DNA from: Panorpa germanica
Lineage: Eukaryota; Arthropoda; Insecta; Mecoptera; Panorpidae
Assembly (NCBI GenBank): GCA_963678705.1
Contig: OY783205.1
Location: forward strand, 9,300,001 to 9,364,000
Direction: 5' to 3'
Length of the DNA: 64,000 bases
A program made the position numbers and the translations under genes. Each line of letters starts with the position of its first letter. Position 1 is the first letter of the stretch. Under the pieces are notes generated by a model. That model searched no databases. It was not told the DNA's origin and saw only the letters and a program-made list of their open reading frames with translations. Below are positions 1 to 59,567 of the stretch, one piece after another.

Positions 1-3000
1 TCGCTAATAAAACGTTGTGGTAAGCACTACTACTTTCTGAATTATTTGCCAAGATGTCACTTCTTATCCAAGTTCAACTTAGGGAAGCAGTGTTGTCAAG
101 TGGAAGAGAAGTGGACTTATAAAAATTACCTCCAGTAGCTATAACTTGCCTTTTAATATTGCCATCATTTATTTGCTTTTGAAAAGGATCCATTCCAAAT
201 ACATCCACGTTAAAGTCTGAAACTGCATGTTCTTGCGGAAATAATTGGTTTGAAATTGGATGACTTATCGTTGAAATTGGATCAACTACAGGCGGAATTT
301 TACCACTCCAATCAACTTGTCTTTTAAATACTGCATCATATTTTGGAAAACGAACAATTAAAGGAGAAGAATCATCTTCTAAATTTGATTGAGATATATT
401 TAAAAGATGACACTTCCTTTTTGTAAGTTTATTTTTTTCTACAATTGGAACTAATGGAGGCATATCTGAAAAACTGTCGACATTCGTGTAATTGATATCA
501 GTTTGCATTGCATATTCTCCATCTTTTCCTTGTTCTTCAAAACAAAAATTTCCATCTACAATCAACTCTGATTGAGTCTTAGTATTTGAGACTTCGTTAC
601 ATTCCAAAATATTGTCGCCAGGATCATTGTTAGCAGATTCAATTTCTCTTTCTATGTTTAGTATTTTAGTAATTTCTTTACTTTCATTTCCTAAAGATTT
701 ATCAGTATTATTTTCCATTTCAATCGTAATTGTTGACGAATTTGATTGATTCCTAATATGCGGTGAAGAAATCTCTGAACTATAGTTCAATTTAACAAAA
801 GACTGTTTATTTTCAACTAATTTCAAACAAGTTTCGTTTTAAATTTCATCGTTTTCTTGAAGATTAGTTACATATTCTACAAGTCCTAAATCTTTGTCGT
901 TTAATATTTCAGTATTAAAATTTCTTTTTGATTTATTACTACCAACTTTTCGAGTGGTATTCCCTTGAGCTTTCGAATATATTTTTGAAGATTGTTGCCC
1001 GATTTTTAGATAAGGTTCACTAATACTTTCTTTCTCATTTGAATTATGTTTAATTTGAAGTATACATTATGCAAGAATTTCAAAATTTAATTAGATTAGC
1101 TTCGATACTGGTCGTTTATAAATGCCATGAGCGGTTTTTAATGTAACAACACGAACATGACCGTCAGGACCTGGATGAGTTTCGTGGACACGTGCCAATG
1201 GCCTTTCGAATAGTGAAATATTATTATCCTTTATCCATACAGGGTCATCCAATTTTAAATTGTCAGAGACGGAGTGCCATTTGTGTCGTTGGTGTAGAGT
1301 ATTGAGATATTGTCGGATCCATCTATTTGCAAAATCCTGTCTAATTTGTTTGATTAATTCCCAACGCTGTAAATGACTTGGGTTTCTATTTAACAGAATT
1401 TCCTCAGGAGGAAGACATAATGACGAACCAATAAGAAAGTGACTAGGAGATAAGGGATGTGGATCATCTGGTGATGCAGGCAAATGTACTAAAAGGCGAC
1501 TGTTCATAATTGCTTCTATTCTGGCAAAAATTGTTGTGAGTTCTTCAAATGTAAGTGGTCGTGTACCAATTACTCGTTGGAGATGATATTTGGCACTTTT
1601 AACTCCACTTTCCTAGAGTCCACCAAAATTTGGACTGTGAGGAGGGTTAAAATGCCATTTAACCCCTCTAATGAAGACTTAATTTACACACATGTTTTGA
1701 CTTCTTTTAAATATCGGTTTGCACCAATGAAAACTGCCGCAATCAGTATAAATATCAGAGCATAGGCCTCGTCGTGATGTAAACCGATCGAATGATGCGA
1801 GAAATGAGTCAGTAGAGTTTCCAGAAGTAACTTCGACGTGAACAGCTTTTGTGGACATACATATAAAAAAACACAAATATGCTTTTGATATATGAGCATT
1901 TCGGATGCGAGATTCTTTAATGAAAAAAGGTCCAGCAAAATCAATACCAACATGTAAAAATGGTCGATGGTATGTGACTCTAGCAGCTGGTAAGTCACCC
2001 ATGACAGGAGTAGATGTAGTTGCTCGTAATTTTGTGCAAATAGTGCATAGTCGTAAGACTTGTCGAATTTTACTTCTGGCGGATATTATCCAGAATTTAG
2101 ATCGTAGAAGATAATGTAACGTATTGAGCTCCACATGTAAATATAGTTTCTGGTAATGTAATATTAGTAAGTTCGTTAAATGATTATGCTTTTTCAATAG
2201 ATATGGGTGTTTTGCTGCAGAGGTTAACTCTGAATTTTCCAGACGTCCGCCGACAACTAATAGCCCATTGCGATCGAGACATGGAGATAGAGAGATTAAA
2301 ATGGTGCGGAATTGACGACCGAGCTTGATATTTCTAATATCATCACTAAAATGATCCTGTTGTGCTAAGCGAATAATAAATATCTCTGCGGCAAGTAATT
2401 CTGAGAACGTTGGTGGACCAACGGCGACGTTAACATCATGACCAGGCATTATTAGTGACCTAAAACGCTTACTGTAAGCTACAATACGAAGTAATTTACA
2501 ATAATTTGACTAGTTTTCTAGTAGAGTTAAGAATACATTTGACACAAGTTTGTCCGTACACAGATTTGAACTGATTTTTACTTGTTTAAGCTCAGGCAAT
2601 GTTAGTTCGGTATTATGTTGTCTAACAAATTTTATGTGGTGGGACCTTCAGCCATGACAACACAACGGAAGAATCAGTAAAGGCGTATACTTGAATATTA
2701 TTCAATTTTATCATTAGAATGTTATGTACATGAAGAAGCAATTTTGTTAAAAAAAACTGCATCAAGAAGTTCTAAAAATATTTGTGGCCCATCGAGTAGA
2801 CGAGATCAGTTCGGCTCCTATATCTATATAATGAAAATACGTTGGTTCTAGGAACAACCTAGCTGACATTTGTAGTCGAGAATTCTTGTCTCGATAAACA
2901 ACTGGCATTACTTGAACGCCTTCAAGATATTTTACATTGACAGCGCCATTATTTTGCAAGGAATTCTCACTAACACCTTGCTTCTCATTAGAAATGGCAT

Positions 3001-3018
3001 TGACAACAGGTTTATTAT
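1..3018 (-). repeat. Array unit 1
   Basis: Length 3018 bp. DUF5641-type region is near 1091-1507, integrase region near 1508-2600, RNase H remnant near 2640-2760, and orphan frame on both sides. The unit is mosaic. Its left third matches units 6 and 7 (the same 250-codon open stretch recurs 15,087 bp downstream), while its integrase half matches unit 9, 24,150 bp downstream. Broken. Confidence 0.9.
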
Positions 3019-6000
3019 TCGCTAATAAAACGTTGTGGTAAGCACTACTACTTTCTGAATTATTTGCCAAGATGTCACTACTTATCCAAGTTCTACTTAG
3101 GGAAACAGTGTTGTCAAGTGGAAGAGATGTGGACTTATAAAAATTACCACCAGTAGATATAACTTGCCTTTTAATATTGCCATCATTTATTTGCTTTTGA
3201 AAAGGATCCATTCCAAATACATCCACGTTAAAGTCTGAAACTGCATGTTCTTGCGGAAATAATTGGTTTGAAATTGGATGACTTATCGTTGAAATTGGAT
3301 CAACTACAGGCGGAGTATTACCACTTAAATCAACTTGTCTTTTAAATACTGCATTATATTTTGGAAAACGAACAATTAAAGGAGAAGAATCATCTTCTAA
3401 ATTTGATTGAGATATATTTAAAAGATGACACTTCCTTTTTGTAAGTTAATTTTTTTCTACAATTGGAACTAATGAAGGCATATCTGAAAAACTGTCGACA
3501 TTCGTGTAATTGATATCAGTTTGCATTGCATATTCTCCATCTTTTCCTTGTTCTTCAAAACAAAAATTTCCATCTACAATCAACTCTGATTGAGTCTTAG
3601 TATTTGAGACTTCGTTACATTCCAAAATATTGTCGCCAGGATCATTGTTAGCAGATTCAATTTCTCTTTCTATGTTTAGTATTTTAGTAATTTCTTTACT
3701 TTCATTTCCTAAAGATTTATCAGTATTATTTTCCATTTCAATCGTAATTGTTGACGAATTTGATTGATTCCTAATATGCGGTGAAGAAATCTCTGAACTA
3801 TAGTTCAATTTAACAAAAGACTGTTCATTTTCAACTAATTTCAAACAAGTTTCGTTTTGAATTTCATCGTTTTCTTGAAAATTAGTTACATATTCTACAA
3901 GTCCTAAATCTTTGTCGTTTAATATTTCAGTATTAAAATTTCTTTTTGATTTATTACTACCAACTTTTCGAGTGGTATTCCCTTGAGCTTTCGAATATAT
4001 TTTTGAAGATTGTTGCCCGATTTTTGGATAAGGTTTACTAATACTTTCTTTCTCATTTGAATTATGTTTAATTTGAAGTATACATTATGCAAGAATTTCA
4101 AAATTTAATTTGATTAGCTTCGATACTGGTCGTTTATAAATGCCATGAGCGGTTTTTAATGTAACAACACGAACATGACCGTCAGGACCTGGATGAGTTT
4201 CGTGGACACGTGCCAATGGCCATTCGAATAGTGAAATATTATTATCCTTTATCCATACAGGGTCATCCAATTTTAAATTGTCAGAGACGGAGTGCCATTT
4301 GTGTCGTTGGTGTAGAGTATTGAGATATTGTCGGATCCATCTATTTGCAAAATCCTGTCTAATTTGTTTGATTAATTCCCAACGCTGTAAATGACTTGGG
4401 TTTCTATTTAACAGAATTTCCTCAGGAGGAAGACATAATGACGAACCAATAAGAAAGTGACTAGGAGATAAGGGATGTGGATCATCTGGTGATGCAGGCA
4501 AATGTACTAAAAGGCGACTGTTCATAATTGCTTCTATTCTGGCAAAAATTGTTGTGAGTTCTTCAAATGTAAGTGGTCGTGTACCAATTACTCGTTGGAG
4601 ATGATATTTGGCACTTTTAACTCCACTTTCCTAGAGTCCACCAAAATTTGGACTGTGAGGAGGGTTAAAATGCCATTTAACCCCTCTAATAAAGACTTAA
4701 TTTACACACATGTTTTGACTTCTTTTAAATATCGGTTTGCACCAATGAAAACTGCCGCAATCAGTATAAATATCAGAGCATAGGCCTCGTCGTGATGTAA
4801 ACCGATCGAATGATGCGAGAAATGAGTCAGTAGAGTTTCCAGAAGTAACTTCGAGGTGAACAGCTTTTGTGGACATACATATAAAAAAACACAAATATGC
4901 TTTTGATATATGAGCATTTCGGATGCGAGGTTCTTTAATGAAAAAAGGTCCAGCAAAATCAATACCAACATGTAAAAATGGTCGATGGTATGTGACTCTA
5001 GCAGCTGGTAAGTCACCCATGACAGGAGTTGATGTAGTTGCTCGTAATTTTGTGCAAATAGTGCATAGTCGTAAGACTTGTCGAATTTTACTTTTGGCGG
5101 ATATTATGCAGAATTTAGATCGTAAAAGATAATGTAACGTATTGAACCCCACAAGTAAATATAGTTTATGGTAATGTAATATTAGTAAGTTCGTTAAATG
5201 GTTATGCTTTGGCAATAGATATGGGTGTTTTGCTGCAGAGGTTAACTCTGAATTTTCGAGACGTCCGCCGACAACTAATAGCCCATTGTGATTGACACAT
5301 GGAGATAGAGAGAATAATATGGTGCGGAATTTACGACCGAGCTTGATATTTCTAATATCATCACTAAAATGATCCTGTTGTGCTAAGCGAATAATAAATA
5401 TCTCTGCGGCAAGTAATTCTGTGAACGTTGGTGGACCAACGGCGACGTTAACATCATGACCAGGCATTATTAGTGACCTAAAACGCTTACTGTAAGCTAC
5501 AATACGAAGTAATTTACAATAATTTGACTGGTTTTCCAGTAGAGTTAAAAATACATTTGACACAAGTTTGTCCGTACACAGATTTGAACTGATTTTTACT
5601 TGTTTAAGCTCAGGCAATGTTAGTTCGGTATTATGTTGTCCAACAAAGCTTATGTGGTGGGACCTTCAGCCATGACAACACAACGGAAGAATCAGTAAAG
5701 GCGTATACTTGAATATTATTCAATTTTGGCATTAGAATGTTATGTACATGAAGAAGCAATTTTGTTAAAAAAACTGCACCAAGAAGTTCTAAAAATATTT
5801 CTGGCCCATCGAGTAGACGAGATCTGTTCGGCTCCTATATCTATACAATGAAAATACGTTGATTCTAGGAACAACCCAGCTCACATTTGTAGTCGAGAAT
5901 TTTTGTCTCGATAAACAACAGGCATTACTTGAACGCCTTCAAGATATTTTACATTGACAGCGCCATTATTTTGCAATGAATTCTCACTAACACCTTGCTT

Positions 6001-6035
6001 CTCATTAGAAATGGCATTGACAACAGGTTTATTAT
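3019..6035 (-). repeat. Array unit 2
   Basis: Length 3017 bp. DUF5641-type region 4085-4525; integrase region 4526-5617. Closest visible relative is unit 10, 24,150 bp downstream, which shares its diagnostic integrase-end and orphan-frame variants. Broken in the orphan frame; the integrase stretch of 306 codons is open. Confidence 0.9.
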
Positions 6036-9000
6036 TCGCTAATAAAACGTTGTGGTAAGCACTACTACTTTTTGAATTATTTGCAAAGATGTCACTACCT
6101 TTCCAAGTTCTACTTAGGGAAGCAGTGTGGTCAAGTGGAAGAGAAGTGGACTTATAAAAATTACCACCAGTAGATATAACTTGCCTTTTAATATTGCCGT
6201 TATTTATTTGCTTTTGAAAAGGATCCATTCCAAATACATCCACGTTAAAGTCTGAAACTGCATGTTCCTGCGGAAATAATTGATTTGAAATTGGATGACT
6301 TATCGTTGAAATTGGATCAACTACAGGCGGAGTATTACCACTCCAATCAACTTGTCTTTTAAATACTGCATCATATTTTGGAAAACGAACAATTAAAGGA
6401 GAAGAATCATCTTCTAAATTTGATTGAGATATATTTAAAAGATGACACTTCCTTTTAGTAAGTTTATTTCTTCCTACAATTGGAACTAATGAAGGCATAT
6501 CTGAAAAACTGTCGCCATTCGTGTAATTGATATCAGTTTGCATTGCATATTCTCCATCTTTTCCTTGTTCTTCAAAACAAAAATTTCCATCTACAATCAA
6601 CTCTGATTAAGTCTTAGTATTTGAGACTTCGTTACATTCCAAAATATTGTCGCCAGGATCATTGTTAGCAGATTCAATTTCTCTTTCTATGTTTAGTATT
6701 TTAGTAATTTCTTTACTTTCATTTCCTAAAGATTTATCAGTATTATTTTCCATTTCAATCGTAATTGTTGACGAATTTGATTGATTCCTAATATGCGGTG
6801 AAGAAATCTCTGAACTATAGTTCAATTTAACAAAAGACTGTTCATTTTCAACTAATTTCAAACAAGTTTCGTTTTGAATTTCATCGTTTTCTTGAAGATT
6901 AGTTACATATTCTACAAGTCCTAAATCTTTGTCGTTTAATATTTCAGTATTAAAATTTCTTTTTGATTTATTACTACCAACTTTTCGAGTGGTATTCCCT
7001 TGAGCTTTCGAATATATTTTTGAAGATTGTTGCCCGATTTTTGGATAAGGTTCACTAATACTTTCTTTCTCATTTGAATTATGTTTAATTTGAAGTATAC
7101 ATTATGCAAGAATTTCAAAATTTAATTTGATTAGCTTCGATACTGGTCGTTTATAAATGCCATGAGCGGTTTTTAATGTAACAACACGAACATGACCGTC
7201 AGGACCTGGATGAGTTTCGTGGACACGTGCCAATGGCCATTCGAATAGTGAAATATTATTATCCTTTATCCATACAGGGTCATCCAATTTTAAATTGTCA
7301 GAGACGGAGTGCCATTTGTGTCGTTGGTGTAGAGTATTGAGATATTGTCGGATCCATCTATTTGCAAAATCCTGTCTAATTTGTTTGATTAATTCCCAAC
7401 GCTGTAAATGATTTGGGTTTCTATTTAACAGAATTTCCTCAGGAGGAAGACATAATGACGAACCAATAAGAGAGTGACTAGGAGATAAGGGATGTGGATC
7501 ATCTGGTGATGCAGGCAAATGTACTAAAAGGCGACTGTTCATAATTGCTTCTATTCTGGCAAAAATTGTTGTGAGTTCTTTAAATGTAAGTGGTCGTGTA
7601 CCAATTACTCGTTGGAGATGATATTTGGCACTTTTAACTCCACTTTCCTAGAGTCCACCAAAATTTGGACTGTGAGGAGGGTTAAAATGCCATTTAACCC
7701 TTCTAATGAAGACTTAATTTACACACATGTTTTGACTTCTTTTAAATATCGGTTTGCAGCAATGAAAACTGCCGCAATCAGTATAAATATCAGAGCATAG
7801 GCCTCGTCGTGATGTAAACCGATCGAATGATGCGAGAAATGAGTCAGTAGAGTTTCCAGAAGTAACTTCGAGGTGAACAGCTTTTGTGGACATACATATA
7901 AAAAAACACAAATATGCTTTTGATATATGAGCATTTCGGATGCGAGGTTCTTTAATGAAAAAAGGTCCAGCAAAATCAATACCAACATGTAAAAATGGTC
8001 GATGGTATGTGACTCTAGCAGCTGGTAAGTCACCCATGACAGGAGTAGATGTAGTTGCTCGTAATTTTGTGCAAATAGTGCATAGTCGTAAGACTTGTCG
8101 AATTTTACTTTTGGCGGATATTATCCAGAATTTAGATCGTAAAAGATAATGTAACGTATTGAGCCCCACATGTAAATATAGTTTATGGTAATGTAATATT
8201 AGTAAGTTCGTTAAATGGTTATGCTTTGGCAATAGATATGGGTGTTTTGCTGCAGAGGTTAACTCTGAATTTTCGAGACGTCCGCCGACAACGTATAGCC
8301 CATTGTAATCGAGACATGGAGATAGAGAGATTAATATGGTGCGGAATTGACGACCGAGCTTGATATTTCTAATATCATCACTAAAATGATCCTGTTGTGC
8401 TAAGCGAATAATAAATATCTCTGCGGCAAGTAATTCTGTGAACGTAGGTGGACCAAAGGCGACGTTAACATCATGACCTGGCATTATTAGTGACCTAAAA
8501 CGCTTACTGTAAGCTACAATACGAAGTAATTTACAATAATTTGACTGGTTTTTTAGTAGAGTTAAGAATACATTTGACACAAGTTTGTCCATACACAGAT
8601 TTGAACTGATTTTTACTTGTTTACGCTCAGGCAATGTTAATTCGGTATTATGTTGTCCAACAAAGTTTATGTGGTGGGACCTTCAGCCATGACAACACAA
8701 CGGAAGAATCAGTAAAGGCGTATACTTGAATATTATTCAATTTTGGCATTAGAATGTTATGTACATGAAGAAGCAATTTTGTTAAAAAAACTGCACCAAG
8801 AAGTTCTAAAAATATTTCTGGCCCATCGAGTAGACGAGATCTGTTCGGCTCCTATATCTATACAATGAAAATACGTTGATTCTAGGAACAACCCAGCTCA
8901 CATTTGTAGTCGAGAATTTTTGTCTCGATAAACAACTGGCATTACTTGAACGCCTTCAAGATATTTTACATTGACAGCGCCATTATTTTGCAAGGAATTC

Positions 9001-9052
9001 TCACTAACACCTTGCTTCTCATTAAAAATGGCATTGACAACAGGTTTATTAT
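6036..9052 (-). repeat. Array unit 3
   Basis: Length 3017 bp. DUF5641-type region 7102-7542; integrase region 7543-8634. The left few hundred bases match unit 11, whereas everything right of about 6.6 kb matches unit 12 at an offset of 27,163 bp. This marks a recombination or block-duplication boundary inside the unit. Broken. Confidence 0.9.
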
Positions 9053-12000: not shown

Positions 12001-12070
12001 TTATTTTGCAAGGAATTCTCACTAACACCTTGCTTCTCATTAGAAATGGCATTGACAACAGGTTTATTAT
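9053..12070 (-). repeat. Array unit 4
   Basis: Length 3018 bp. Orphan frame open over 326 codons at 8898-9878; DUF5641-type region 10119-10559; integrase region 10560-11651. It is a near twin of unit 13 (offset 27,163 bp), sharing several private variants in both the orphan frame and the integrase. Confidence 0.9.
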
Positions 12071-24976: not shown

Positions 24977-27168
24977 ACAAGTTTCGTTTTGAATTTCATC
25001 GTTTTCTTGAAAATTAGTTACATATTCTACAAGTCCTAAATCTTTGTCGTTTAATATTTCAGTATTAAAATTTCTTTTTGATTTATTACTACCAACTTTT
25101 CGAGTGGTATTCCCTTGAGCTTTCGAATATATTTTTGAAGATTGTTGCCCGATTTTTGGATAAGGTTCACTAATACTTTCTTTCTCATTTGAATTATGTT
25201 TAATTTGAAGTATACATTATGCAAGAATTTCAAAATTTAATTTGATTAGCTTCGATACTGGTCGTTTATAAATGCCATGAGCGGTTTTTAATGTAACAAC
25301 ACGAACATGACCGTCAGGACCTGGATGAGTTTCGTGGACACGTGCCAATGGCCATTTGAATAGTGAAATATTATTATCCTTTATCCATACAGGGTCATCC
25401 AATTTTAAATTGTCAGAGACGGAGTGCCATTTGTGTCGTTGGTGGAGAGTATTGAGATATTGTCGGATCCATCTATTTGCAAAATCCTGTCTAATTTGTT
25501 TGATTAATTCCCAACGCTGTAAATGACTTGGGTTTCTATTTAACAGAATTTCCTCAGGAGGAAGACATAATGACGAACCAATAAGAAAGTGACTAGGAGA
25601 TAAGGGATGTGGATCATCTGGTGATGCAGGCAAATGTACTAAAAGGCGACTGTTCATAATTGCTTCTATTCTGGCAAAAATTGTTGTGAGTTCTTCAAAT
25701 GTAAGTGGTCGTGTACCAATTACTCGTTGGAGATGATATTTGGCACTTTTAACTCCACTTTCCTAGAGTCCACCAAAATTTGGACTGTGAGGAGGGTTAA
25801 AATGCCATTTAACCCCTCTAATGAAGACTTAATTTACACACATGTTTTGACTTCTTTTAAATATCGGTTTGCACCAATGAAAACTGCCGCAATCAGTATA
25901 AATATCAGAGCATAGGCCTCGTCGTGATGTAAACCGATCGAATGATGCGAGAAATGAGTCAGTAGAGTTTCCAGAAGTAACTTCGACGTGAACAGCTTTT
26001 GTGGACATACATATAAAAAAACACAAATATGCTTTTGATATATGAGCATTTCGGATGCGAGATTCTTTAATGAAAAAAGGTCCAGCAAAATCAATACCAA
26101 CATGTAAAAATGGTCGATGGTATGTGACTCTAGCAGCTGGTAAGTCACCCATGACAGGAGTAGATGTAGTTGCTCGTAATTTTGTGCAAATAGTGCATAG
26201 TCGTAAGACTTGTCGAATTTTACTTCTGGCGGATATTATCCAGAATTTAGATCGTAGAAGATAATGTAACGTATTGAGCTCCACATGTAAATATAGTTTC
26301 TGGTAATGTAATATTAGTAAGTTCGTTAAATGATTATGCTTTTTTAATAGATATGGGTGTTTTGCTGCAGAGGTTAACTCTGAATTTTCCAGACGTCCGC
26401 CGACAACTAATAGCCCATTGCGATCGAGACATGGAGATAGAGAGATTAAAATGGTGCGGAATTGACGACCGAGCTTGATATTTCTAATATCATCACTAAA
26501 ATGATCCTGTTGTGCTAAGCGAATAATAAATATCTCTGCGGCAAGTAATTCTGAGAACGTTGGTGGACCAACGGCGACGTTAACATCATGACCAGGCATT
26601 ATTAGTGACCTAAAACGCTTACTGTAAGCTACAATACGAAGTAATTTACAATAATTTGACTAGTTTTCCAGTAGAGTTAAGAATACATTTGACACAAGTT
26701 TGTCCGTACACAGATTTGAACTGATTTTTACTTGTTTAAGCTCAGGCAATGTTAGTTCGGTATTATGTTGTCTAACAAATTTTATGTGGTGGGACCTTCA
26801 GCCATGACAACACAACGGAAGAATCAGTAAAGGCGTATACTTGAATATTATTCAATTTTATCATTAGAATGTTATGTACATGAAGAAGCAATTTTGTTAA
26901 AAAAAACTGCATCAAGAAGTTCTAAAAATATTTGTGGCCCATCGAGTAGACGAGATCAGTTCGGCTCCTATATCTATATAATGAAAATACGTTGGTTCTA
27001 GGAACAACCTAGCTGACATTTGTAGTCGAGAATTCTTGTCTCGATAAACAACTGGCATTACTTGAACGCCTTCAAGATATTTTACATTGACAGCGCCATT
27101 ATTTTGCAAGGAATTCTCACTAACACCTTGCTTCTCATTAGAAATGGCATTGACAACAGGTTTATTAT
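24151..27168 (-). repeat. Array unit 9
   Basis: Length 3018 bp. DUF5641-type region 25217-25657; integrase region 25658-26599. The orphan frame entering from the left is fully open (360 codons, 23894-24976). The integrase half is the 24,150 bp partner of unit 1, and the DUF5641 variant is shared with unit 5. Confidence 0.9.
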
Positions 27169-27994
27169 TCGCTAATAAAACGTTGTGGTAAGCACTACTA
27201 CTTTCTGAATTATTTGCCAAGATGTCACTACTTATCCAAGTTCTACTTAGGGAAACAGTGTTGTCAAGTGGAAGAGAAGTGGACTTATAAAAATTACCAC
27301 CAGTAGATATAACTTGCCTTTTAATATTGCCATCATTTATTTGCTTTTGAAAAGGATCCATTCCAAATACATCCACGTTAAAGTCTGAAACTGCATGTTC
27401 TTGCGGAAATAATTGGTTTGAAATTGGATGACTTATCGTTGAAATTGGATCAACTACAGGCGGAGTATTACCACTTAAATCAACTTGTCTTTTAAATACT
27501 GCATTATATTTTGGAAAACGAACAATTAAAGGAGAAGAATCATCTTCTAAATTTGATTGAGATATATTTAAAAGATGACACTTCCTTTTTGTAAGTTTAT
27601 TTTTTTCTACAATTGGAACTAATGAAGGCATATCTGAAAAACTGTCGACATTCGTGTAATTGATATCAGTTTGCATTGCATATTCTCCATCTTTTCCTTG
27701 TTCTTCAAAACAAAAATTTCCATCTACAATCAACTCTGATTGAGTCTTAGTATTTGAGACTTCGTTACATTCCAAAATATTGTCGCCAGGATCATTGTTA
27801 GCAGATTCAATTTCTCTTTCTATGTTTAGTATTTTAGTAATTTCTTTACTTTCATTTCCTAAAGATTTATCAGTATTATTTTCCATTTCAATCGTAATTG
27901 TTGACGAATTTGATTGATTCCTAATATGCGGTGAAGAAATCTCTGAACTATAGTTCAATTTAAAAAAAGACTGTTCATTTTCAACTAATTTCAA
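26912..27994 (-). CDS. Orphan reading frame of the array unit (unit 9/10 junction copy)
   Basis: A 360-codon open stretch of unrecognised function, repeated throughout the array. The predicted product is rich in Ser, Asn, Asp and Glu, has no signal peptide or membrane segment, and looks largely disordered. Its C-terminal ~70 residues approach the RNase H remnant of the BEL/Pao polyprotein. It lies directly downstream of the DUF5641 region of one unit and upstream of the RNase H/integrase of the neighbouring unit, so its place corresponds to where gag, protease and reverse transcriptase would lie in a whole BEL/Pao element. The first Met lies well inside the open stretch, so the start is arbitrary. 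Comparable open copies occur at 8898-9878, 21071-21961, 23894-24976, 29781-31010 and 36061-37041. It could be a highly diverged element region or captured host sequence; I cannot tell which. Confidence 0.5.
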   Translation of the reverse strand: MKLVENEQSFFKLNYSSEISSPHIRNQSNSSTITIEMENNTDKSLGNESKEITKILNIEREIESANNDPGDNILECNEVSNTKTQSELIVDGNFCFEEQGKDGEYAMQTDINYTNVDSFSDMPSLVPIVEKNKLTKRKCHLLNISQSNLEDDSSPLIVRFPKYNAVFKRQVDLSGNTPPVVDPISTISHPISNQLFPQEHAVSDFNVDVFGMDPFQKQINDGNIKRQVISTGGNFYKSTSLPLDNTVSLSRTWISSDILANNSESSSAYHNVLLANNKPVVNAISNEKQGVSENSLQNNGAVNVKYLEGVQVMPVVYRDKNSRLQMSARLFLEPTYFHYIDIGAELISSTRWATNIFRTS

Positions 27995-28234
27995 ACAAGT
28001 TTCGTTTTGAATTTCATCGTTTTCTTGAAAATTAGTTACATATTCTACAAGTCCTAAATCTTTGTCGTTTAATATTTCAGTATTAAAATTTCTTTTTGAT
28101 TTATTACTACCAACTTTTCGAGTGGTATTCCCTTGAGCTTTCGAATATATTTTTGAAGATTGTTGCCCGATTTTTGGATAAGGTTTACTAATACTTTCTT
28201 TCTCATTTGAATTATGTTTAATTTGAAGTATACA

Positions 28235-28675
28235 TTATGCAAGAATTTCAAAATTTAATTTGATTAGCTTCGATACTGGTCGTTTATAAATGCCATGAGC
28301 GGTTTTTAATGTAACAACACGAACATGACCGTCAGGACCTGGATGAGTTTCGTGGACACGTGCCAATGGCCATTCGAATAGTGAAATATTATTATCCTTT
28401 ATCCATACAGGGTCATCCAATTTTAAATTGTCAGAGACGGAGTGCCATTTGTGTCGTTGGTGTAGAGTATTGAGATATTGTCGGATCCATCTATTTGCAA
28501 AATCCTGTCTAATTTGTTTGATTAATTCCCAACGCTGTAAATGACTTGGGTTTCTATTTAACAGAATTTCCTCAGGAGGAAGACATAATGACGAACCAAT
28601 AAGAAAGTGACTAGGAGATAAGGGATGTGGATCATCTGGTGATGCAGGCAAATGTACTAAAAGGCGACTGTTCAT
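28235..28675 (-). pseudogene. BEL/Pao C-terminal DUF5641-type domain, reference copy (unit 10)
   Basis: A 146-codon stretch with the hallmarks of the domain after the integrase core in BEL/Pao polyproteins: a MNSRLL start region, SPSHFLIGSSL, a Trp-rich middle (QRWELIKQ) and the closing WPLARVHETHPGPDG and VVTLKTAHGIYKRP blocks. In complete elements this is the C-terminal part of the polyprotein and helps bind DNA with the integrase. Here it is followed within a few codons by the orphan reading frame rather than by an LTR. Present in all units with few changes; its strong conservation across copies mainly reflects recent amplification. Confidence 0.85.
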
Positions 28676-28846
28676 AATTGCTTCTATTCTGGCAAAAATT
28701 GTTGTGAGTTCTTCAAATGTAAGTGGTCGTGTACCAATTACTCGTTGGAGATGATATTTGGCACTTTTAACTCCACTTTCCTAGAGTCCACCAAAATTTG
28801 GACTGTGAGGAGGGTTAAAATGCCATTTAACCCCTCTAATAAAGAC

Positions 28847-29767
28847 TTAATTTACACACATGTTTTGACTTCTTTTAAATATCGGTTTGCACAAATGAAA
28901 ACTGCCGCAATCAGTATAAATATCAGAGCATAGGCCTCGTCGTGATGTAAACCGATCGAATGATGCGAGAAATGAGTCAGTAGAGTTTCCAGAAGTAACT
29001 TCGAGGTGAACAGCTTTTGTGGACATACATATAAAAAAACACAAATATGCTTTTGATATATGAGCATTTCGGATGCGAGGTTCTTTAATGAAAAAAGGTC
29101 CAGCAAAATCAATACCAACATGTAAAAATGGTCGATGGTATGTGACTCTAGCAGCTGGTAAGTCACCCATGACAGGAGTAGATGTAGTTGCTCGTAATTT
29201 TGTGCAAATAGTGCATAGTCGTAAGACTTGTCGAATTTTACTTTTGGCGGATATTATCCAGAATTTAGATCGTAAAAGATAATGTAACGTATTGAGCCCC
29301 ACAAGTAAATATAGTTTATGGTAATGTAATATTAGTAAGTTCGTTAAATGGTTATGCTTTGGCAATAGATATGGGTGTTTTGCTGCAGAGGTTAACTCTG
29401 AATTTTCGAGACGTCCGCCGACAACTAATAGCCCATTGTGATTGACACATGGAGATAGAGAGAATAATATGGTGCGGAATTGACGACCGAGCTTGATATT
29501 TCTAATATCATCACTAAAATGATCCTGTTGTGCTAAGCGAATAATAAATATCTCTGCGGCAAGTAATTCTGTGAACGTTGGTGGACCAACGGCGACGTTA
29601 ACATCATGACCAGGCATTATTAGTGACCTAAAACGCTTACTGTAAGCTACAATACGAAGTAATTTACAATAATTTGACTGGTTTTCCAGTAGAGTTAAAA
29701 ATACATTTGACACAAGTTTGTCCGTACACAGATTTGAACTGATTTTTACTTGTTTAAGCTCAGGCAA
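28847..29767 (-). pseudogene. BEL/Pao integrase region, reference copy (unit 10)
   Basis: A 306-codon stretch. Residues ~130-190 form an H2C2 integrase zinc-binding domain, with histidines around HYHKLYLH (unit consensus form) and a CTIC pair near residues 185-188. Residues ~213-300 start the DDE core, with Asp near 220 in GIDFAGP and Asp near 286 in TDCGSF. These are BEL/Pao signatures; integrase inserts the cDNA copy into the genome. Upstream residues ~1-120 resemble the linker after RNase H. The region is part of a deleted element that lacks LTRs and reverse transcriptase, so it is a fossil. The equivalent stretch is present in all 14 units, open over about 306 codons in units 2, 3, 4, 5, 6, 10, 12 and 14 and broken or shorter elsewhere. 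Confidence 0.85.
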
Positions 29768-29780
29768 TGTTAGTTCGGTA

Positions 29781-31010
29781 TTATGTTGTCCAACAAAGCT
29801 TATGTGGTGGGACCATCAGCCATGACAACACAACGGAAGAATCAGTAAAGGCGTATACTTGAATATTATTCAATTTTGGCATTAGAATGTTATGTACATG
29901 AAGAAGCAATTTTGTTAAAAAAACTGCACCAAGAAGTTCTAAAAATATTTGTGGCCCATAAATTGACGAGATCTGTTCAACTCCTATATCTATACAATGA
30001 AAATACGTTGATTCTTGGAAGAACCTAGCTGACATTTGTAGTCGAGAATTTTTGTCTCGATAAACAACTGGCATTACTTGAACGCCTTCAAGATATTTTA
30101 CATTGACAGCGCCATTATTTTGCAATGAATTCTCACTAACACCTTGCTTCTCATTAGAAATGGCATTGACAACAGGTTTATTATTCGCTAATAAAACGTT
30201 GTGGTAAGCACTACTACTTTTTGAATTATTTGCAAAGATGTCACTACCTTTCCAAGTTCTACTTAGGGAAGCAGTGTGGTCAAGTGGAAGAGAAGTGGAC
30301 TTATAAAAATTACCACCAGTAGATATAACTTGCCTTTTAATATTGCCGTTATTTATTTGCTTTTGAAAAGGATCCATTCCAAATACATCCACGTTAAAGT
30401 CTGAAACTGCATGTTCCTGCGGAAATAATTGATTTGAAATTGGATGACTTATCGTTGAAATTGGATCAACTACAGGCGGAGTATTACCACTCCAATCAAC
30501 TTGTCTTTTAAATACTGCATCATATTTTGGAAAACGAACAATTAGAGGAGAAGAATCATCTTCTAAATTTGATTGAGATATATTTAAAAGATGACACTTC
30601 CTTTTTGTAAGTTTATTTTTTTCTGCGATTGGAACTAATGGAGGCATATCTGAAAAACTGTCGACATTCGTGTAATTGATATCAGTTTGCATTGCATATT
30701 CTCCATCTTTTCCTTGTTCTTCAAAACAAAAATTTCCATCTATAATCAACTCTGATTGAGTCTTAGTATTTGAGACTTCGTTACATTCCAAAATATTGTC
30801 GCCAGGATCATTGTTAGCAGATTCAATTTCTCTTTCTATGTTTAGTATTTTAGTAATTTCTTTACTTTCATTTCCTAAAGATTTATCAGTATTATTTTCC
30901 ATTTCAATCGTAATTGTTGACGAATTTGATTGATTCCTAATATGCGGTGAAGAAATCTCTGAACTATAGTTCAATTTAACAAAAGACTGTTCATTTTCAA
31001 CTAATTTCAA
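29781..31010 (-). CDS. Longest orphan reading frame, running into an RNase H remnant
   Basis: A 409-codon open stretch. Residues 1 to about 320 are the Ser/Asn-rich unrecognised region; roughly the last 50 residues carry a BEL/Pao RNase H remnant with the motif TDSSVVLSWL, typical of the segment just before the integrase in BEL/Pao polyproteins. This copy therefore shows, without any reconstruction, that the orphan region sits in frame with retrotransposon sequence. The RNase H part is only a fragment of the domain, so no enzyme activity is expected. Confidence 0.5.
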   Translation of the reverse strand: MKLVENEQSFVKLNYSSEISSPHIRNQSNSSTITIEMENNTDKSLGNESKEITKILNIEREIESANNDPGDNILECNEVSNTKTQSELIIDGNFCFEEQGKDGEYAMQTDINYTNVDSFSDMPPLVPIAEKNKLTKRKCHLLNISQSNLEDDSSPLIVRFPKYDAVFKRQVDWSGNTPPVVDPISTISHPISNQLFPQEHAVSDFNVDVFGMDPFQKQINNGNIKRQVISTGGNFYKSTSLPLDHTASLSRTWKGSDIFANNSKSSSAYHNVLLANNKPVVNAISNEKQGVSENSLQNNGAVNVKYLEGVQVMPVVYRDKNSRLQMSARFFQESTYFHCIDIGVEQISSIYGPQIFLELLGAVFLTKLLLHVHNILMPKLNNIQVYAFTDSSVVLSWLMVPPHKLCWTT

Positions 31011-33198
31011 ACAAGTTTCGTTTTGAATTTCATCGTTTTCTTGAAGATTAGTTACATATTCTACAAGTCCTAAATCTTTGTCGTTTAATATTTCAGTATT
31101 AAAATTTGTTTTTGATTTATTTTTACCAACTTTTCGAGTGGTATTCCCTTGAGCGAATATATTTTTGAAGATTGTTGCCCGATTTTTGTAAAAGGTTCAC
31201 TAATACTTTCTTTCTCATTTGAATAATGTTTAATTTGAAGTATACATTATGCAAGAATTTCAAAATTTAATTTGATTAGCTTCGATACTGGTCGTTTATA
31301 AATGCCATGAGCGGTTTTTAATGTAACAACACGAACATGACCGTCAGGACCTGGATGAGCTTCCTGGACACGTGCCAATGGCCATTCGAATGGTGAAATA
31401 TTATTATACTTTATCCATTCAAGGTCATCCAATTTTAAATTGTCAGAGACGGAGTGGCATTTGTGTCGTTGGTGTAGAGTATTGAGATATTGTCGGATCC
31501 ATCTATTTGCAAAAACCTGTCTAAATTGTTTGATTAATTCCCAACGCTGTAAATGATTTGGGTTTCTATTTAACAGAATTTCCTCAGGAGGAAGACATAA
31601 TGACGAACCAATAAGAAAGTGACTAGGAGATAAAAGAATTTGGATCATCTGGTGATGCAGGCAAATGTACTAAAAGGCGACTGTTCATAATTGCTTCTAT
31701 TCTGGCAAAAATTGTTGTGAGTTCTTTAAATGTAAATGGTCGTGTACCAATTACTTGTAGGAGATGATATTTGGCACTTTTAACTCCACTTTCCTAGAGT
31801 CCACCAAAATTTGGACTGTGAGGAGGGTTAAAATGCCATTTAACCCCTATAATGAAGACTTAATTTGCACACATGTTCTGACTTCTTTTAAATATCGGTT
31901 TGCACCAATGAAAACTGCCGCAATCAGTATAAATATCAGAGCATAGGCCTTGTCGTGATGTAAACCGATCGAATGATGCGAGAAATGAGTCAGTAGAGAT
32001 TCCAGAAGTAACTTCGAGGTGAACAGCTTTTGTGGACATACATATAAAAAGACACAAATATGCTTTTGATATATGAGCATTTCGGATGCGAGGTTCTTTA
32101 ATGAAAAAAGGTCCAGCAAAATCAATACCAATATGTAAAAATGGTCGATGGTATGTGACTCTAGCAGCTGGTAAGTCACCCATGACAGGAGTAAATGTAG
32201 TTGCTCGTAATTTTGTGCAAATAGTGCATAGTCGTAAGACTTGTCGAATTTTACTTCAGGCGGATATTATCCAGAATTTAGATCGTAGAAGATAATGTAA
32301 CGTATTGAGCTCCACATGTAAATATAGTTTCTGGTAATGTAATATTAGTAAGTTCGTTAAATGATTATGCTTTTTCAATAGATATGGGTGTTTTGCTGCA
32401 GAGGTTAACTCTGAATTTTCCAGACGTCCGCCGACAACTAATAGCCCATTGCGATCGAGACATGGAGATAGAGAGATTAAAATGGTGCGGAATTGACGAC
32501 CGAGCTTGATATTTCTAATATCATCACTAAAATAATCCTGTTGTGCTAAGCGAATAATAAATATCTCTGCGGCAAGTAATTCTGAGAACGTTGGTGGACC
32601 AACGGCGACGTTAACATCATGACCAGGCATTATTAGTGACCTAAAACGCTTACTGTAAGCTACAATACGAAGTAATTTACAATAATTTGACTAGTTTTCC
32701 AGTAGAGTTAAGAATACATTTGACACAAGTTTGTCCGTACACAGATTTGAACTGATTTTTACTGTTTAAGCTCAGGCAATGTTAGTTCGGTATTATGTTG
32801 TCTAACAAATTTTATGTGGTGGGACCTTCAGCCATGACAACACAACGGAAGAATCAGTAAAGGCGTATACTTGAATATTATTCAATTTTGGCATTAGAAT
32901 GTTATGTACATGAAGAAGCAATTTTGTTAAAAAAAATTGCATCAAGAAGTTTTAAAAATATTTGTGGCCCATCGAGTAGACGAGATCAGTTTGGCTCCTA
33001 TATCTATATAATGAAAATACGTTGGTTCTAGGAACAACCTAGCTGACATTTGTAGTCGAGAATTCTTGTCTCGATAAACAACTGGCATTACTTGAACGCC
33101 TTCAAGATATTTTACATTGACAGCACCATTATTGTGCAAGGAATTCTCACTAACACCTTGCTTCTCATTAGAAATGGCATTGACAACAGGTTTATTAT
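30185..33198 (-). repeat. Array unit 11
   Basis: Length 3014 bp, the shortest whole unit. It holds the right part of the longest open orphan frame (29781-31010, 409 codons). DUF5641-type region near 31247-31690; integrase region 31691-32630. The left part pairs with unit 3 and the right part with unit 8. It is the extra unit that raises the inter-block offset from 24,150 to 27,163 bp. Confidence 0.9.
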
Positions 33199-36100: not shown

Positions 36101-36215
36101 GGCATTACTTGAACGCCTTCAAGATATTTTACATTGACAGCGCCATTATTTTGCAAGGAATTCTCACTAACACCTTGCTTCTCATTAAAAATGGCATTGA
36201 CAACAGGTTTATTAT
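33199..36215 (-). repeat. Array unit 12
   Basis: Length 3017 bp. DUF5641-type region 34265-34705; integrase region 34706-35797, open over 306 codons. Partner of unit 3 at 27,163 bp from about 33.77 kb rightward. The orphan frame is broken. Confidence 0.9.
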
Positions 36216-39200
36216 TCGCTAATAAAACGTTGTGGTAAGCACTACTATTTTTTGAATTATTTGCAAAGATGTCACTACCTCTCCAAGTTCTACTTAGGGA
36301 AGCAGTGTGGTCAAGTGGAAGAGAAGTGGACTTATAAAAATTACCAACAGTAGATATAACTTGCCTTTTAATATTGCCATCATTTATTTGCTTTTGAAAA
36401 GGATCCATTCCAAATACATCCACGTTAAAGTCTGAAACTGCATGTTCTTGCGGAAATAATTGGTTTGAAATTAAATGACTTATCGTTGAAATTGGATTAA
36501 CTACAGGCGGAGTATTACCACTCCAATCAACTTGTCTTTTAAATACTGCATCATATTTTGGAAAACGAACAATTAAAGGAGAAGAATCATCTTCTAAATT
36601 TGATTGAGATATATTTAAAAGATGACACTTCCTTTTAGTAAGTTTATTTCTTCCTACAATTGGAACTAATGGAGGCATATCTGAAAAACTGTCGCCATTC
36701 GTGTAATTGATATCAGTTTGCATTGCATATTCTCCATCTTTTCCTTGTTCTTCAAAACCAAATGTTCCATCTACAATCAACTCTGATGGAGTTTTAGTAT
36801 TTGAGACTTCGTTACATTCTAAAATATTGTCGCCAGGATCATTGTTAGCAGATTCAATTTCTCTTTCTATGTTTAGTATTTTAGTAATTTCTTTACTTTC
36901 ATTTCCTAAAGATTTATCAGTATTATTTTCCATTTCAATCGTAATTGTTGACGAATTTGATTGATTCCTAATAAGCGGTGAAGAAATCTCTGAACTATAG
37001 TTCAATTTACTAAAAGACTGTTCATTTTCAACTAATTTCAAACAAGTTTCGTTTTAAATTTCATCGTTTTCTTGAAGATTAGTTACATATTCTACAAGTC
37101 CTGAATCTTTGTCGTTTAATATTTCAGTATTAAGATTTCTTTTTGATTTATTACTACCAACTTTTCGAGTGGTATTCCCTTGAGCTTTCGAATATATTTT
37201 TGAAGATTGTTGCCCGATTTTTGGATAAGGTTCATTAATACTTTCTTTCTCATTTGAATTATGTTTAATTTGAAGTATACATTATGCAAGAATTTCAAAA
37301 TTTAATTTGATTAGCTTCGATACTGGTCGTTTATAAATGCCATGAGCGGTTTTTAATGTAACAACACGAACATGACCGTCAGGACCTGGATGAGTTTCGT
37401 GGACACGTGCCAATGGCCATTCGAATAGTGAAATATTATTATCCTTTATCCATACAGGGTCATCCAATTTTAAATTGTCAGAGACGGAGTGCCATTTGTG
37501 TCGTTGGTGTAGAGTATTGAGATATTGTCGGATCCATCTATTTGCAAAATCCTGTCTAATTTGTTTGATTAATTCCCAACGCTGTAAATGACTTGGGTTT
37601 CTATTTAACAGAATTTCCTCAGGAGGAAGACATAATGACGAACCAATAAGAAAGTGACTAGGAGATAAGGGATGTGGATCATCTGGTGATGCAGGCAATT
37701 GTACTAAAAGGCGACTGTTCATAATTGCTTCTATTCTGGCAAAAATTGTTGTGAGTTCTTCAAATGTAAGTGGTCGTGTACCAATTACTCGTTGGAGATG
37801 ATATTTGGCACTTTTAACTCTACTTTCCTAGAGTCCACCAAAATTTGGACTGTGAGGAGGGTTAAAATGCCATTTAACCCCTCTAATGAAGACTTAATTT
37901 ACACACATGTTTTGACTTCTTTTAAATATCGGTTTGCACCAATGAAAACTGCCGCAATCAGTATAAATATCAGAGCATAGGCCTCGTCGTGATGTAAACC
38001 GATCGAATGATGCGAGAAATGAGTCAGTAGTTTCCAGAAGTAACGTCGAGGTGAACAGCTTTTGTGGACATACATATAAAAAAACACAAATATGCTTTTG
38101 ATATATGAGCATTTCGGATGCGAGGTTCTTTAATGAAAAAAGGTCCAGCAAAATCAATACCAACATGTAAAAATGGTCGATGGTATGTGACTCTAGCAGC
38201 TGGTAAGTCACCCATGACAGGAGTATATGTAGTTGCTCGTAATTTTGTGCAAATAGTGCATAGTCGTAAGACTTGTCGAATTTTACTTTTGGCGGATATT
38301 ATCCAGAATTTAGATCGTAAAAGATAATGTAACGTATTGAGCCCCACATGTAAATATAGTTTATGGTAATGTAATATTAGTAAGTTCGTTAAATGGTTAT
38401 GCTTTGGCAATAGATATGGGTGTTTTGCTGCAGAGGTTAACTCTGAATTTTCGAGACGTCCGCCGACAACTAATAGCCCATTGTGATTGACACATGGAGA
38501 TAGAGAGAATAATATGGTGCGGAATTGACGACCGAGCTTGATATTTCTAATATCATCACTAAAATGATCCTGTTGTGCTAAGCGAATAATAAATATCTCT
38601 GCGGCCAGTAATTCTGTGAACGTTGGTGGACCAAAGCCGACGTTAACAACATGACCTGGCATTATTAGTGAAATAAAACGCTTACTGTAAGCTACAATAC
38701 GAAGTAATTTACAATAATTTGACTGGTTTTCCAATAGAGTTAAGAATACATTTGACACAAGTTTGTCCGTACACAGATTTGAACTGATTTTTACTTGTTT
38801 AAGCTCAGGCAATGTTAGTTCGGTATTATGTTGTCTAACAAATTTTATGTGGTGGGACCTTCAGCCATGACAACACAACGGAAGAATCAGTAAAGGCGTA
38901 TACTTGAATATTATTCAATTTTGGCATTAGAATGTTATGTACATGAAGAAGCAATTTTGTTAAAAAAAACTGCATCAAGAAGTTCTAAAAATATTTTAGA
39001 TAAAAAGATAGAAAGATAAATATTACCCATCGAGTAGACGAGATCTGTTCGGCTCTTATATCTATACAATGAAAATACGTTGATTCTAGGAACAACCTAG
39101 CTGACATTTGTAGTCGAGAATTTTTGTCTCGATAAACAACTGGCATTACTTGAACGCCTTCAAGATATTTTACATTGACAGCGCCATTATTTTGCAAGGA

Positions 39201-39256
39201 ATTCTCACTAACACCTTGCTTCTCATTAGAAATGGCATTGACAACAGGTTTATTAT
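36216..39256 (-). repeat. Array unit 13
   Basis: Length 3041 bp, the longest unit. Orphan frame open over 326 codons (36061-37041); DUF5641-type region 37282-37722; integrase region 37723-38812. Near twin of unit 4. Broken in the integrase. Confidence 0.9.
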
Positions 39257-42200
39257 TTGCTAATAAAACGTTGTGGTATGCACTACTACATTCTGAATTA
39301 TTTGCCAAGATGTCACTACTTATCCAAGTTCTACTTAGGGAAGCAGTGTTGTCAAGTGGAAGAGAAGTGGACTTATAAAAATTACCACCAGTAGCTATAA
39401 CTTGCCTTTTAATATTGCCATCATTTATTTGCTTTTGAAAAGGATCCATTCCAAATACATCCACGTTAAAGTCTGAAACTGCATGTTCTTGCAGAAATAA
39501 TTGGTTTAAAATTGAATGACTTATCGTTGAAATTGGATCAACTACAGGCAGAGTATTACCACTCCAATCAACTTGTCTTTTAAATACTGCATCATATTTT
39601 AGAAAACGAACAATTAAAGAAAAAGAATCATCTTCTAAATTTGATTGAGATATATTTAAAAGATAACACTTCCTTTTTGTAAGTTTATTTTTTTCTACAA
39701 TTGGAACTAATGGAGGCATATCTGAAAAACTGTCGACATTCGTGTAATTGATATCAGTTTGCATTGCATATTCTCCATCTTTTCCATGTTCTTCAAAACT
39801 AAAATTTCCATCTACAATCAACTCTGATTGAGTCTTAGTATTTGAGACTTCGTTATATTAAAAAATATTGTCGTCAGGATCATTGTTAGCAGATTCAATT
39901 TCTCTTTCTATGTTTAGTATTTTAGTAATTTCTTTACTTTCATTTCCTAAAGATTTATCAGTATTATTTTCCATTACAATCATAATTGTTGACGAATTTG
40001 ATTGATTCCTAATATGCGGTGAAGAAATCTCTGAACTATAGTTCAATTTACCAAAAGACTGTTCATTTTCAACTAATTTCAAACAAGTTTCGTTTTGAAT
40101 TTCATCGTTTTCTTGAAGATTAGTTACATATTCTACAAGTCCTGAATCTTTGTCGTTTAATATTTCAGTATTAAGATTTCTTTTTGATTTATTACTACCA
40201 ACTTTTCGAGTGGTATTCCCTTGAGCTTTCGAATATATTTTTGAAGATTGTTGCCCGATTTTTGGATAAGGTTCACTAATACTTCCTTTCTCATTTGAAT
40301 TATGTTTAATTTGAAGTATACATTATGCAAGAATTTCAAAATTTAATTTGATTTGCTTCGATACTGGTCGTTCATAAATACCATGAGCGGTTTTTAATGT
40401 TACAACACGAACATGACCGTCAGGACCTGGATGAGTTTCTTGGACACGTGCCAATGGCCATTCGAATGGTGAAATATTATTATTCTTTATCCATACAAGG
40501 TCATCCAATTTTAAATTGTCAGAGACGGAGTGCCATTTGTGTCGTTGGTGTAGAGTATTGAGATATTGTCGGATCCATCTATTTGCAAAATCCTGTCTAA
40601 TTTGTTTGATTAATTCCCAACGCTGTAAATGATTTGGGTTTCTATTTAACAGAATTTCCTCAGGAGGAAGACATAATGACGAACCAATAAGAAAGTGACT
40701 AGGAGATAAGGGATGTGGATCATCTGGTGATGCAGGCAAATGTACTAAAAGGCGACTGTTCATAATTGCTTCTATTCTGGCAAAAATTGTTGTGAGTTCT
40801 TCAAATGTAAGTGGTCGTGTACCAATTACTCGTTGGAGATGATATTTGGCACTTTTAACTCCACTTTCCTAGAGTCCACCAAAATTTGGACTGTGAGGAG
40901 GGTTAAAATGCCATTTAACGCCTCTAATGAAGACTTAATTTGCACACATGTTCTGACTTCTTTTAAATATCGGTTTGCACCAATGAAAACTGCCGCAATC
41001 AGTATAAATATCAGAGCATAGGCCTCGTCGTGATGTAAACCGATCGAATGATGCGAGAAATGAGTCAGTAGAGATTCCAGAAGTAACTTCGAGGTGAACA
41101 GCTGTAGTGGACATACATATAAAAAGACACAAATATGCTTTTGATATATGAGCATTTCGAATGCGAGGTTGTATAATGGAAAAGGGTCCAGCAAAATCAA
41201 TACCAACATGTAAAAATGGTCGATTGTATGTGACTCTAGCAGCTGGTAAGTCACCGATGACAGGAGTAGATGTAGTTGCTCGTAATTTTGTGCAAATAGT
41301 GCATAGTCGTAAGACTTGTCGAATTTTACTTCTGGCGGATATTATCCAGAATTTAGATCGTAAAAGATAATGTAACGTATTGAGCCCCACATGTAAATAT
41401 AGTTTCTGGTAATGTAATATTAGTAAGTTCGTTAAATGATTATGCTTTTTCAATAGATATGGGTGTTTTGCTGCAGAGGTTAACTCTGATTTTTCGAGAC
41501 GTCCGCCGACAACTAATAGCCCATTGTAAATGACACATGGAGATAGAGAGAATAATATGGTGCGGAATTGACGACCGAGCTTGATATTTCTAATATCATC
41601 ACTAAAATGATCCTGTTGTGCTAAGCGAATAATAAATATCTCTGCGGCAAGTAATTCTGTGAACGTTGGTGGACCAAAGCCGACGTTAACATCATGACCT
41701 GGCATTATTAGTGAAATAAAACGCTTACTGTAAGCTACAATACGAAGTAATTTACAATAATTTGACTGGTTTTCCAATAGAGTTAAGAATACATTTGACA
41801 CAAGTTTGTCCGTACACAGATTTGAACTGATTTTTACTTGTTTAAGCTCAGGCAATGTTAGTTCGGTATTATGTTGTCTAACAAATTTTATGTGGTGGGA
41901 CCTTCAGCCATGACAACACAACGGAAGAATCAGTAAAGGCGTATACTTGAATATTATTCAATTTTGGCATTAGAATGTTATGTACATGAAGAAGCAATTT
42001 TGTTAAAAAAACTGCATCAAGAAGTTCTAAAAATATTTGTGGCCCATCGAGTAGACGAGATCTGTTCGGCTCCTATATCTATACAATGAAAATACGTTGA
42101 TTCTAGGAACAACCTAGCTGACATTTGTAGTCGAGAATTCTTGTCTCGATAAACAACTGGCATTACTTGAACGCCTTCAAGATATTTTACATTGACAGCG

Positions 42201-42273
42201 CCATTATTTTGCAAGGAATTCTCACTAACACCTTGCTTCTCATTAGAAATGGCATTGACAAAAGGTTTATTAT
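39257..42273 (-). repeat. Array unit 14
   Basis: Length 3017 bp. DUF5641-type region 40323-40763; integrase region 40764-41855. The orphan-frame half pairs with unit 5, and the DUF5641/integrase part carries variants of the units 8/11 subfamily plus private ones. Broken in the orphan frame. Confidence 0.9.
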
Positions 42274-42402
42274 TCGCTAATAAAACGTTGTGGTAAGCAC
42301 TACTACTTTCTGAATTATTTGCCAAGATGTCACTACTTATCCAAGTTCTACTTAGGGAAGCAGTGTTGTCAAGTGGAAGAGAAGTGGACTTATAAAAATT
42401 AC
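42274..42402 (-). repeat. Array unit 15, left fragment, cut by Polinton
   Basis: The next unit begins in phase and is interrupted after 129 bp by the Polinton. Its last six bases (AATTAC) are the left target-site copy. The remainder of the same unit resumes at 63635. Confidence 0.95.
42397..42402 (+). repeat. Left Polinton target-site duplication
   Basis: AATTAC, identical to 63635-63640. Other array units contain the hexamer once at this place, so it is a true 6 bp duplication, the length expected for Polintons. Confidence 0.97.
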
Positions 42403-50589: not shown

Positions 50590-50691
50590 CCAATTTTATA
50601 CTTTATAATATTTTCATATATGAAGATTAAACATTTAAAATGTATTCTATTAGTTTATAACACATGCCAGGTTAAACAATGAAGTTTGTAA

Positions 50692-59565: not shown

Positions 59566-59567
59566 TG

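Follow-up and report, generated by a model that had tools for sequence, protein, structure and literature searches.

The window analysed here is a stretch of 64,000 bp of the Panorpa germanica genome, C2:9300001-9364000 of the 464 Mb in 249 contigs that were searched, in which a tandem array of ~3,017-bp units is interrupted by a Polinton. Over positions 1-42402, the leading offsets between shared 24-mers are 3,017 and 3,018 bp, and a BLAST census against the unit at 3019-6035 finds fourteen whole units lying head to tail in positions 1-42273. Thirteen of them are uninterrupted and measure 3,014-3,031 bp, the remaining one (36216-39256) has a local indel, and the window units are 96.6-100% identical to the reference, the upper value being the reference itself. 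A fifteenth unit is represented by its first 129 bp (42274-42402), after which comes the edge of the Polinton. Tandem Repeats Finder, with a period limit of 500, is blind to a unit of ~3 kb.

1-42402, minus strand: macrosatellite units, fourteen whole and 129 bp of the next, the BEL pol reading on this strand
3019-6035, minus strand: reference unit for all comparisons, taken from the BLAST census
4069-5792, minus strand: 3' part of BEL/Pao pol (unit 1051-2774), ~190 bp missing relative to the C6 copy
4085-4630, minus strand: DUF5641 open frame of the reference unit, 181 aa
4697-5665, minus strand: open frame of 322 codons with a broken integrase region, a weak Integrase_H2C2 match lying in a sister copy
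5777-5897, plus strand: ~120-bp BEL scrap, inverted, 81% identical to L033:1976-2095
26912-28234, minus strand: 440-codon orphan open frame, following the DUF5641 stop immediately and in frame, with no match in L033, Pfam or PDB
63635-64000, minus strand: resumption of the array at unit position 124, AATTAC recurring at 63635-63640

The original prediction of a ~3,017-bp head-to-tail repeat with fourteen whole units is confirmed by both the k-mer spacing and the census. Its statement that the array leaves the window at both ends holds at positions 1 and 64000, but position 42402, which it took for an end, is the left edge of the Polinton insertion. The label of macrosatellite was well chosen, as the unit is of kilobase size, stands in a long head-to-tail array and has more than 200 sites genome-wide. 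On the other hand, the interruption by the Polinton and a Copia element, the far larger extent of the array, the amplified insertions and the ~1.19 kb without match to the BEL relative had been overlooked.

Make-up of the unit

Read on the minus strand, the unit presents in order the end of an RNase H region (placed by means of a BEL/Pao copy on contig C6, locus L033), a broken integrase, DUF5641 with its stop, the 440-codon frame and then the next unit. In sister copies, hmmscan matches DUF5641 with an E-value of 9e-31 (25217-25762) and the Integrase_H2C2 zinc finger weakly, with an E-value of 0.0014 and a score of 19.1 bits where the cut-off is 25.5 (28847-29815). The C6 locus carries RVT_1, Peptidase_A17 (Pao), Integrase_H2C2 and DUF5641, that is, the domains of a BEL/Pao element in BEL/Pao order, and it is 92.7% identical to unit 1051-2633 over 1.6 kb and 90.3% identical to unit 2631-2774. 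About 190 bp of the C6 copy are absent from the unit between 2631 and 2633, and part of this absent piece sits inverted at unit 2759-2879 (81%). The RVT_1 match lies upstream of L033:1843, where the homology begins, so that the unit has no reverse transcriptase. The description of the unit as integrase, DUF5641 and an orphan frame is therefore borne out by the strong DUF5641 match, the zinc finger below cut-off and the domain order of L033, and that of the BEL/Pao element as deleted by the late start of the homology, the missing piece and the inverted scrap. Judged from its sequence, the unit is derived from a BEL/Pao element and is not itself one. As previously stated, no LTR is seen in it, the comparison being made without an LTR sequence of this BEL family, and there is little room for one because the 440-codon frame starts immediately behind the stop of DUF5641. 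Downstream of the C6 copy, L033:4117-6155 holds tandem repeats with a period of 166 bp (~95% alike), followed by others with a period of ~77 bp.

The ~1.19 kb of the unit without match to L033 correspond to positions 2880-3017 and 1-1050. Since L033 comprises the middle and the 3' end of the BEL pol and its flank, without the gag end, this stretch may come from BEL's own 5' part. The orphan frame itself shows no Pfam family at E<=1, a single chance-level match in the PDB (E 0.18) and no pattern match in viral contigs, and a structure model from the single sequence came out with very low confidence for both the local and the overall fold. In the genome, the best 100 of 353 candidate matches to it are filled by array copies. 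Among the 53 of 61 copies that are full-length over 1,063 bp, 28 are without in-frame stop, 19 have one and 6 have two, frameshifts being left uncounted. The pN/pS ratio amounts to 1.42 for the orphan frame (53 of 61 copies), 2.22 for DUF5641 (58 of 59 copies) and 0.99 for the integrase part (45 of 73 matches), values that are rough, as unit copies share history and are not independent. By this measure, there is no sign of purifying selection on any of the three frames.

Interrupting elements and extent of the array

The fifteenth unit stops at unit position 129 (42402); the array continues, still in phase, from unit position 124 (63635), with AATTAC on both sides of the following element.

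42397-42402: unit 124-129, AATTAC, the target-site duplication on the left side of the Polinton
42403-63634: Polinton/Maverick of 21,232 bp with terminal inverted repeats of ~400 bp (84%)
47599-48402, minus strand: Polinton frame with the double-jelly-roll domain (PF21738, E 6e-58)
49726-50595, minus strand: phospholipase A2-like protein of the Polinton (PF08398, E 1e-16)
50692-51381, plus strand: A32-type packaging ATPase of the Polinton (PF04665, E 4e-9)
53106-54071, plus strand: integrase of the Polinton (rve, E 3e-16; sub-cut-off chromodomain, E 7e-5)
55171-59779, plus strand: Copia inside the Polinton, its LTRs at 55171-55381 and 59568-59779 showing 0 mismatches and 1 gap between them
59774-61768, minus strand: Polinton frame with an Endonuclease VII match (E 1e-5)

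Polintons/Mavericks are defined by long terminal inverted repeats starting with AG and by a 6-bp target duplication. The stretch 42403-63634 has such long repeats and a 6-bp duplication, and encodes a retroviral-like integrase, a packaging ATPase and a double-jelly-roll capsid. The Copia is flanked by AATAC (55166-55170 and 59780-59784), and the frames on its two sides, 54137-55189 and 59774-61768, are on account of their motifs taken by us to be, probably, the halves of a polymerase gene split by this Copia, with no Pfam polymerase match in either. A 38-mer from the Polinton end recurs at 91 genome sites with at most three mismatches, the family thus being spread in the genome, and a search of viral contigs for the Polinton integrase gave 12 pattern matches, none of them confirmed. 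A 42-bp short tandem repeat also lies inside the element (51449-51635). Elsewhere, eleven Polinton-end sites of the same variant lie on one strand at C1:10.94-11.38 Mb, the last five spaced by 9,276-10,461 bp, which looks like another tandem array containing a Polinton end.

The Polinton and its nested Copia belong to a block that is duplicated 36,348 bp downstream, an offset that keeps the phase of the units. Substitutions relative to the copy at this offset amount to ~3.3% before the breakpoint and to less than 0.1% after it; dense differences end at 9332132 and the next one is at 9332997, which delimits the following interval.

32133-32996 (9332133-9332996): range within which the 36.3-kb tandem duplication has its left breakpoint

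The second Polinton, placed by its two end sites, occupies 9378750-9399969, and 8 substitutions and 2 gaps separate the two elements in the 15.26 kb compared. The junction between array and Polinton is found at 2 sites genome-wide, both belonging to the duplicated block. Besides, 64 other recurring blocks of at least 5.5 kb, and up to 14.7 kb, are seen at differing offsets.

Beyond the window, the 304 kb of C2:9090001-9394000 were read in one piece and contain 37 uninterrupted full-length units, the reference included, with 96.6-100% identity to it; further out, the array appears as spaced matches from which its continuity is inferred. Unit sites are distributed along C2 from 8.749 to 9.451 Mb, with a block on the opposite strand at C2:7.97-8.23 Mb. 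At no more than three mismatches, a 36-mer from the orphan part has 225 sites genome-wide (160 forward, 65 reverse) and one from the DUF5641 end has 206 (161 forward, 45 reverse), the reversed-pattern controls giving 0 for each. Among the 100 orphan matches listed, 67 are forward at C2:8,749,362-9,074,575, 30 are reverse at C2:7,974,042-8,139,883, one is reverse at C2:6,877,528 and two are reverse on C1. Within the 304-kb stretch lie 58 more forward orphan sites; the main array holds at least 125 of the 160 forward sites, positions being available for all but 35 of these 160 and all but 32 of the 65 reverse ones. The small sets of units are found on C1 (~9.95-9.98 Mb) and at C2:6.877 Mb, where a 2-kb read shows the orphan part and then BEL again, as part of another small array. 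In the same way, the best 150 of 1,540 candidate DUF5641 protein matches run over C2:8,755,987-9,451,219 on the minus strand and 8,028,700-8,234,568 on the plus strand. Their identity is mostly 91-95% at 8.75-8.95 Mb and mostly 93-100% at 9.0-9.4 Mb, a difference which suggests that the array has regional subfamilies. The opposite orientation of the blocks at 7.97-8.23 and 8.75-9.45 Mb resembles an array split by an inversion, or two facing arms. Seven exact repeats of the telomere motifs TTAGG and TCAGG have 0 matches each in the genome.

Long near-identical repeats are a known assembly hazard, and the array was judged from the assembly alone, so that inflation of a short array by misassembly has to be considered. 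Copies of the unit pieces, however, differ by 1.9-2.6% on average and bear differing inserts and indels, and the contig that holds the array reaches 29.1 Mb; such an artefact is thus very unlikely. As for a possible function of the array, be it that of (peri)centromere DNA or that of a mobile-element trap and source of small RNA, its large size, its two oppositely oriented blocks and the several element classes caught in it would be in keeping with it. Against this stand the confinement of all but 2-3 of the 100 matches listed for each 36-mer pattern to the single contig C2 and the drift of the frames without constraint, so that we consider such a job improbable and infer that the array is without cellular role.

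The recurring LTR element and other inserts

An LTR element is present in 14 of the 60 units or part-units of the 304-kb stretch, at the same base and with ATAT on both sides, and its left junction is found at 21 sites genome-wide, all within C2:9005860-9287298. Its Pfam matches are DUF1759 and a retroviral protease, none being to a reverse transcriptase, and from a reverse-transcriptase motif and the 4-bp duplication we take it to be probably Gypsy-like. In 13 of the 14 copies read, the one left out being broken by a PIF1-type helicase insert, the 5' and 3' LTRs of one copy differ by 3.0-3.9% (mean 3.4%), as against 0.48% (5' LTR), 0.65% (3' LTR) and 0.28% (inner part) between copies. As the divergence between the LTRs within a copy exceeds that between copies, the element is therefore one older insertion that was copied later. 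That the recurring inserts would instead be independent insertions of site-preferring elements, rather than co-amplified ones, is consistent with every copy being seen at the same unit position, but this is extremely improbable in view of a within-copy LTR difference of 5-12 times the between-copy difference, and of the linked unit DNA that carriers share, unless new copies could be born with LTRs already diverged.

The co-amplified insertion also allows carrier and plain units to be compared along the unit. Their differentiation is 0.61 beside the insertion and 0.04-0.19 in six far windows (14 carriers and 40-45 plain copies per window). In ten of the 13 windows, 0 of 300 random label shuffles attain the observed differentiation; in three far windows, 17, 3 and 4 of 300 do so. 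Where carrier and plain units are interleaved, the differentiation amounts to 0.66 next to the insertion and to 0.10-0.17 over unit 1-750 and 2501-3000, with an uneven decay in between: 0.46-0.52 flanking the peak over unit 1251-2500, a sharp drop past 2500 and 0.26-0.28 at 751-1250. There, no circular label shift gives a differentiation as high as the observed one in 11 of the 13 windows, and 1 of 30 shifts does so in two far windows. Neither shuffles nor shifts preserve the tree that relates the units, and no more than 27-30 shifts are available per window. The recurring multi-unit blocks and this carrier/plain differentiation are signs of local exchange between copies.

Other inserts include a P-like element with a TNP-like domain, whose junction is found at 3 sites. 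The broken LTR-element copy, at L012:4672-7325 (C2:9264672-9267325), has an insert of ~3.46 kb with a PIF1-type helicase and is Helitron-like.

Growth of the array and related satellites

Very probably, a rearranged, dead BEL/Pao copy became a tandem repeat, which grew by in-register exchange to ~0.7 Mb on a single contig, with an inverted block nearby. The founding unit would have joined the 3' part of a BEL/Pao pol and an inverted scrap to ~1.19 kb of DNA that is untraced and was formerly coding. Growth would then have proceeded by in-register exchange between misaligned units, i.e. unequal crossing-over, possibly with conversion, presumably between sister or homologous chromatids, and would have copied the inserts along with the units: the LTR element (21 carriers), the P-like element (3) and the Polinton carrying Copia (2, in the 36.3-kb block). 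This reading has its support in the recurring single-site inserts, the LTR divergence in excess of copy divergence, the in-phase duplication with its sharp breakpoint, the decay of differentiation and the lack of any sign of purifying selection on the frames. The exchange is placed in register between units because the differentiation of carriers from plain units fades away from the insertion and because the Polinton block was duplicated in phase, the data being compatible alike with crossing-over, gene conversion or break-induced replication.

It might also be considered that growth occurred largely by rolling-circle copying of excised circles followed by reinsertion, or by break-induced replication, a mixture with unequal exchange being conceivable. 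Such routes are proposed for satellites generally in the accessible text of PMC8122249, and the opposite-strand block at C2:7.97-8.23 Mb, together with the small sets on C1 and at C2:6.877 Mb, indicates that units do reach new places. Nevertheless, the differentiation decays to either side of the inserted LTR element, and the 64 multi-unit blocks of at least 5.5 kb, with their varied lengths and offsets, point to exchange between resident units; predominance of rolling-circle or break-induced copying is hence rather unlikely, without being negligible. With clearly less probability, comparable to that of a function for the array, the latter could be a working chromosome domain, flanking the centromere or trapping mobile elements and feeding small RNAs, where any new insertion may give rise to a higher-order repeat that then spreads. 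If true, the array would be a record of the sequence in which elements invaded it, the virus-like Polintons among them.

Regarding known macrosatellites, the human D4Z4 unit holds an open frame, DUX4, and neither D4Z4 nor DXZ4 is known to be retrotransposon-derived. The Panorpa unit likewise contains an open frame, but with no sign of a kept gene. In the available part of PMC8122249, D4Z4 (3.3 kb) and DXZ4 (3 kb) resemble it in unit size and in their long arrays. Retrotransposon parents of satellites are well documented: a 2025 review (PMC12628747, as far as its accessible text goes) counts the LTR, gag or pol parts of LTR retrotransposons among the origins of satellites and lists unequal exchange as one of the ways in which these arise, and plant and animal cases are listed in the corresponding portion of PMC9659126. 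These include the maize CRM1TR and CRM4TR tandem repeats from centromeric retrotransposons (PMC3648361, also PMC9659126, both in excerpt), which, like the Panorpa array, are tandem arrays made from parts of LTR retrotransposons and locally homogenised. For them, the excerpt of PMC3648361 favours gene conversion and leaves unequal exchange possible. CRM, by those same extracts, is a plant Ty3/Gypsy element, whereas here the source is an animal BEL/Pao, part of the unit is untraced to BEL and later elements were amplified inside the array. The composite satellites that stem from 'TE graveyards' in the review excerpt (PMC12628747) are alike in that their monomer consists of joined element remnants, but they assemble short stretches of several TEs, in contrast to the one long BEL piece and untraced stretch of a 3-kb unit. 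Finally, satellites of the Drosophila ananassae subgroup (PMC11917152, in its accessible portion) are comparable through arrays of up to 2 Mb, a higher-order structure and sporadic interruptions by several element classes; their monomers are of 99-411 bp, whereas the longer repeats here were founded by the inserted elements themselves.

A search by word-matched titles and abstract starts, which the slash spelling may escape, found no BEL/Pao-derived macrosatellite among the papers listed. Satellites from retrotransposon pol being already known, the array adds an animal BEL/Pao pol to their parents, and what is unusual in it is the legibility of its growth. Unequal exchange is an old theory of the engine of satellite growth, for which insertions with exact junctions provide welcome markers here: a single insertion now occurs in 21 units, exchange having eroded its linkage within ~1 kb, and a 36-kb duplication that includes a complete virus-like element has a breakpoint that is still fresh.
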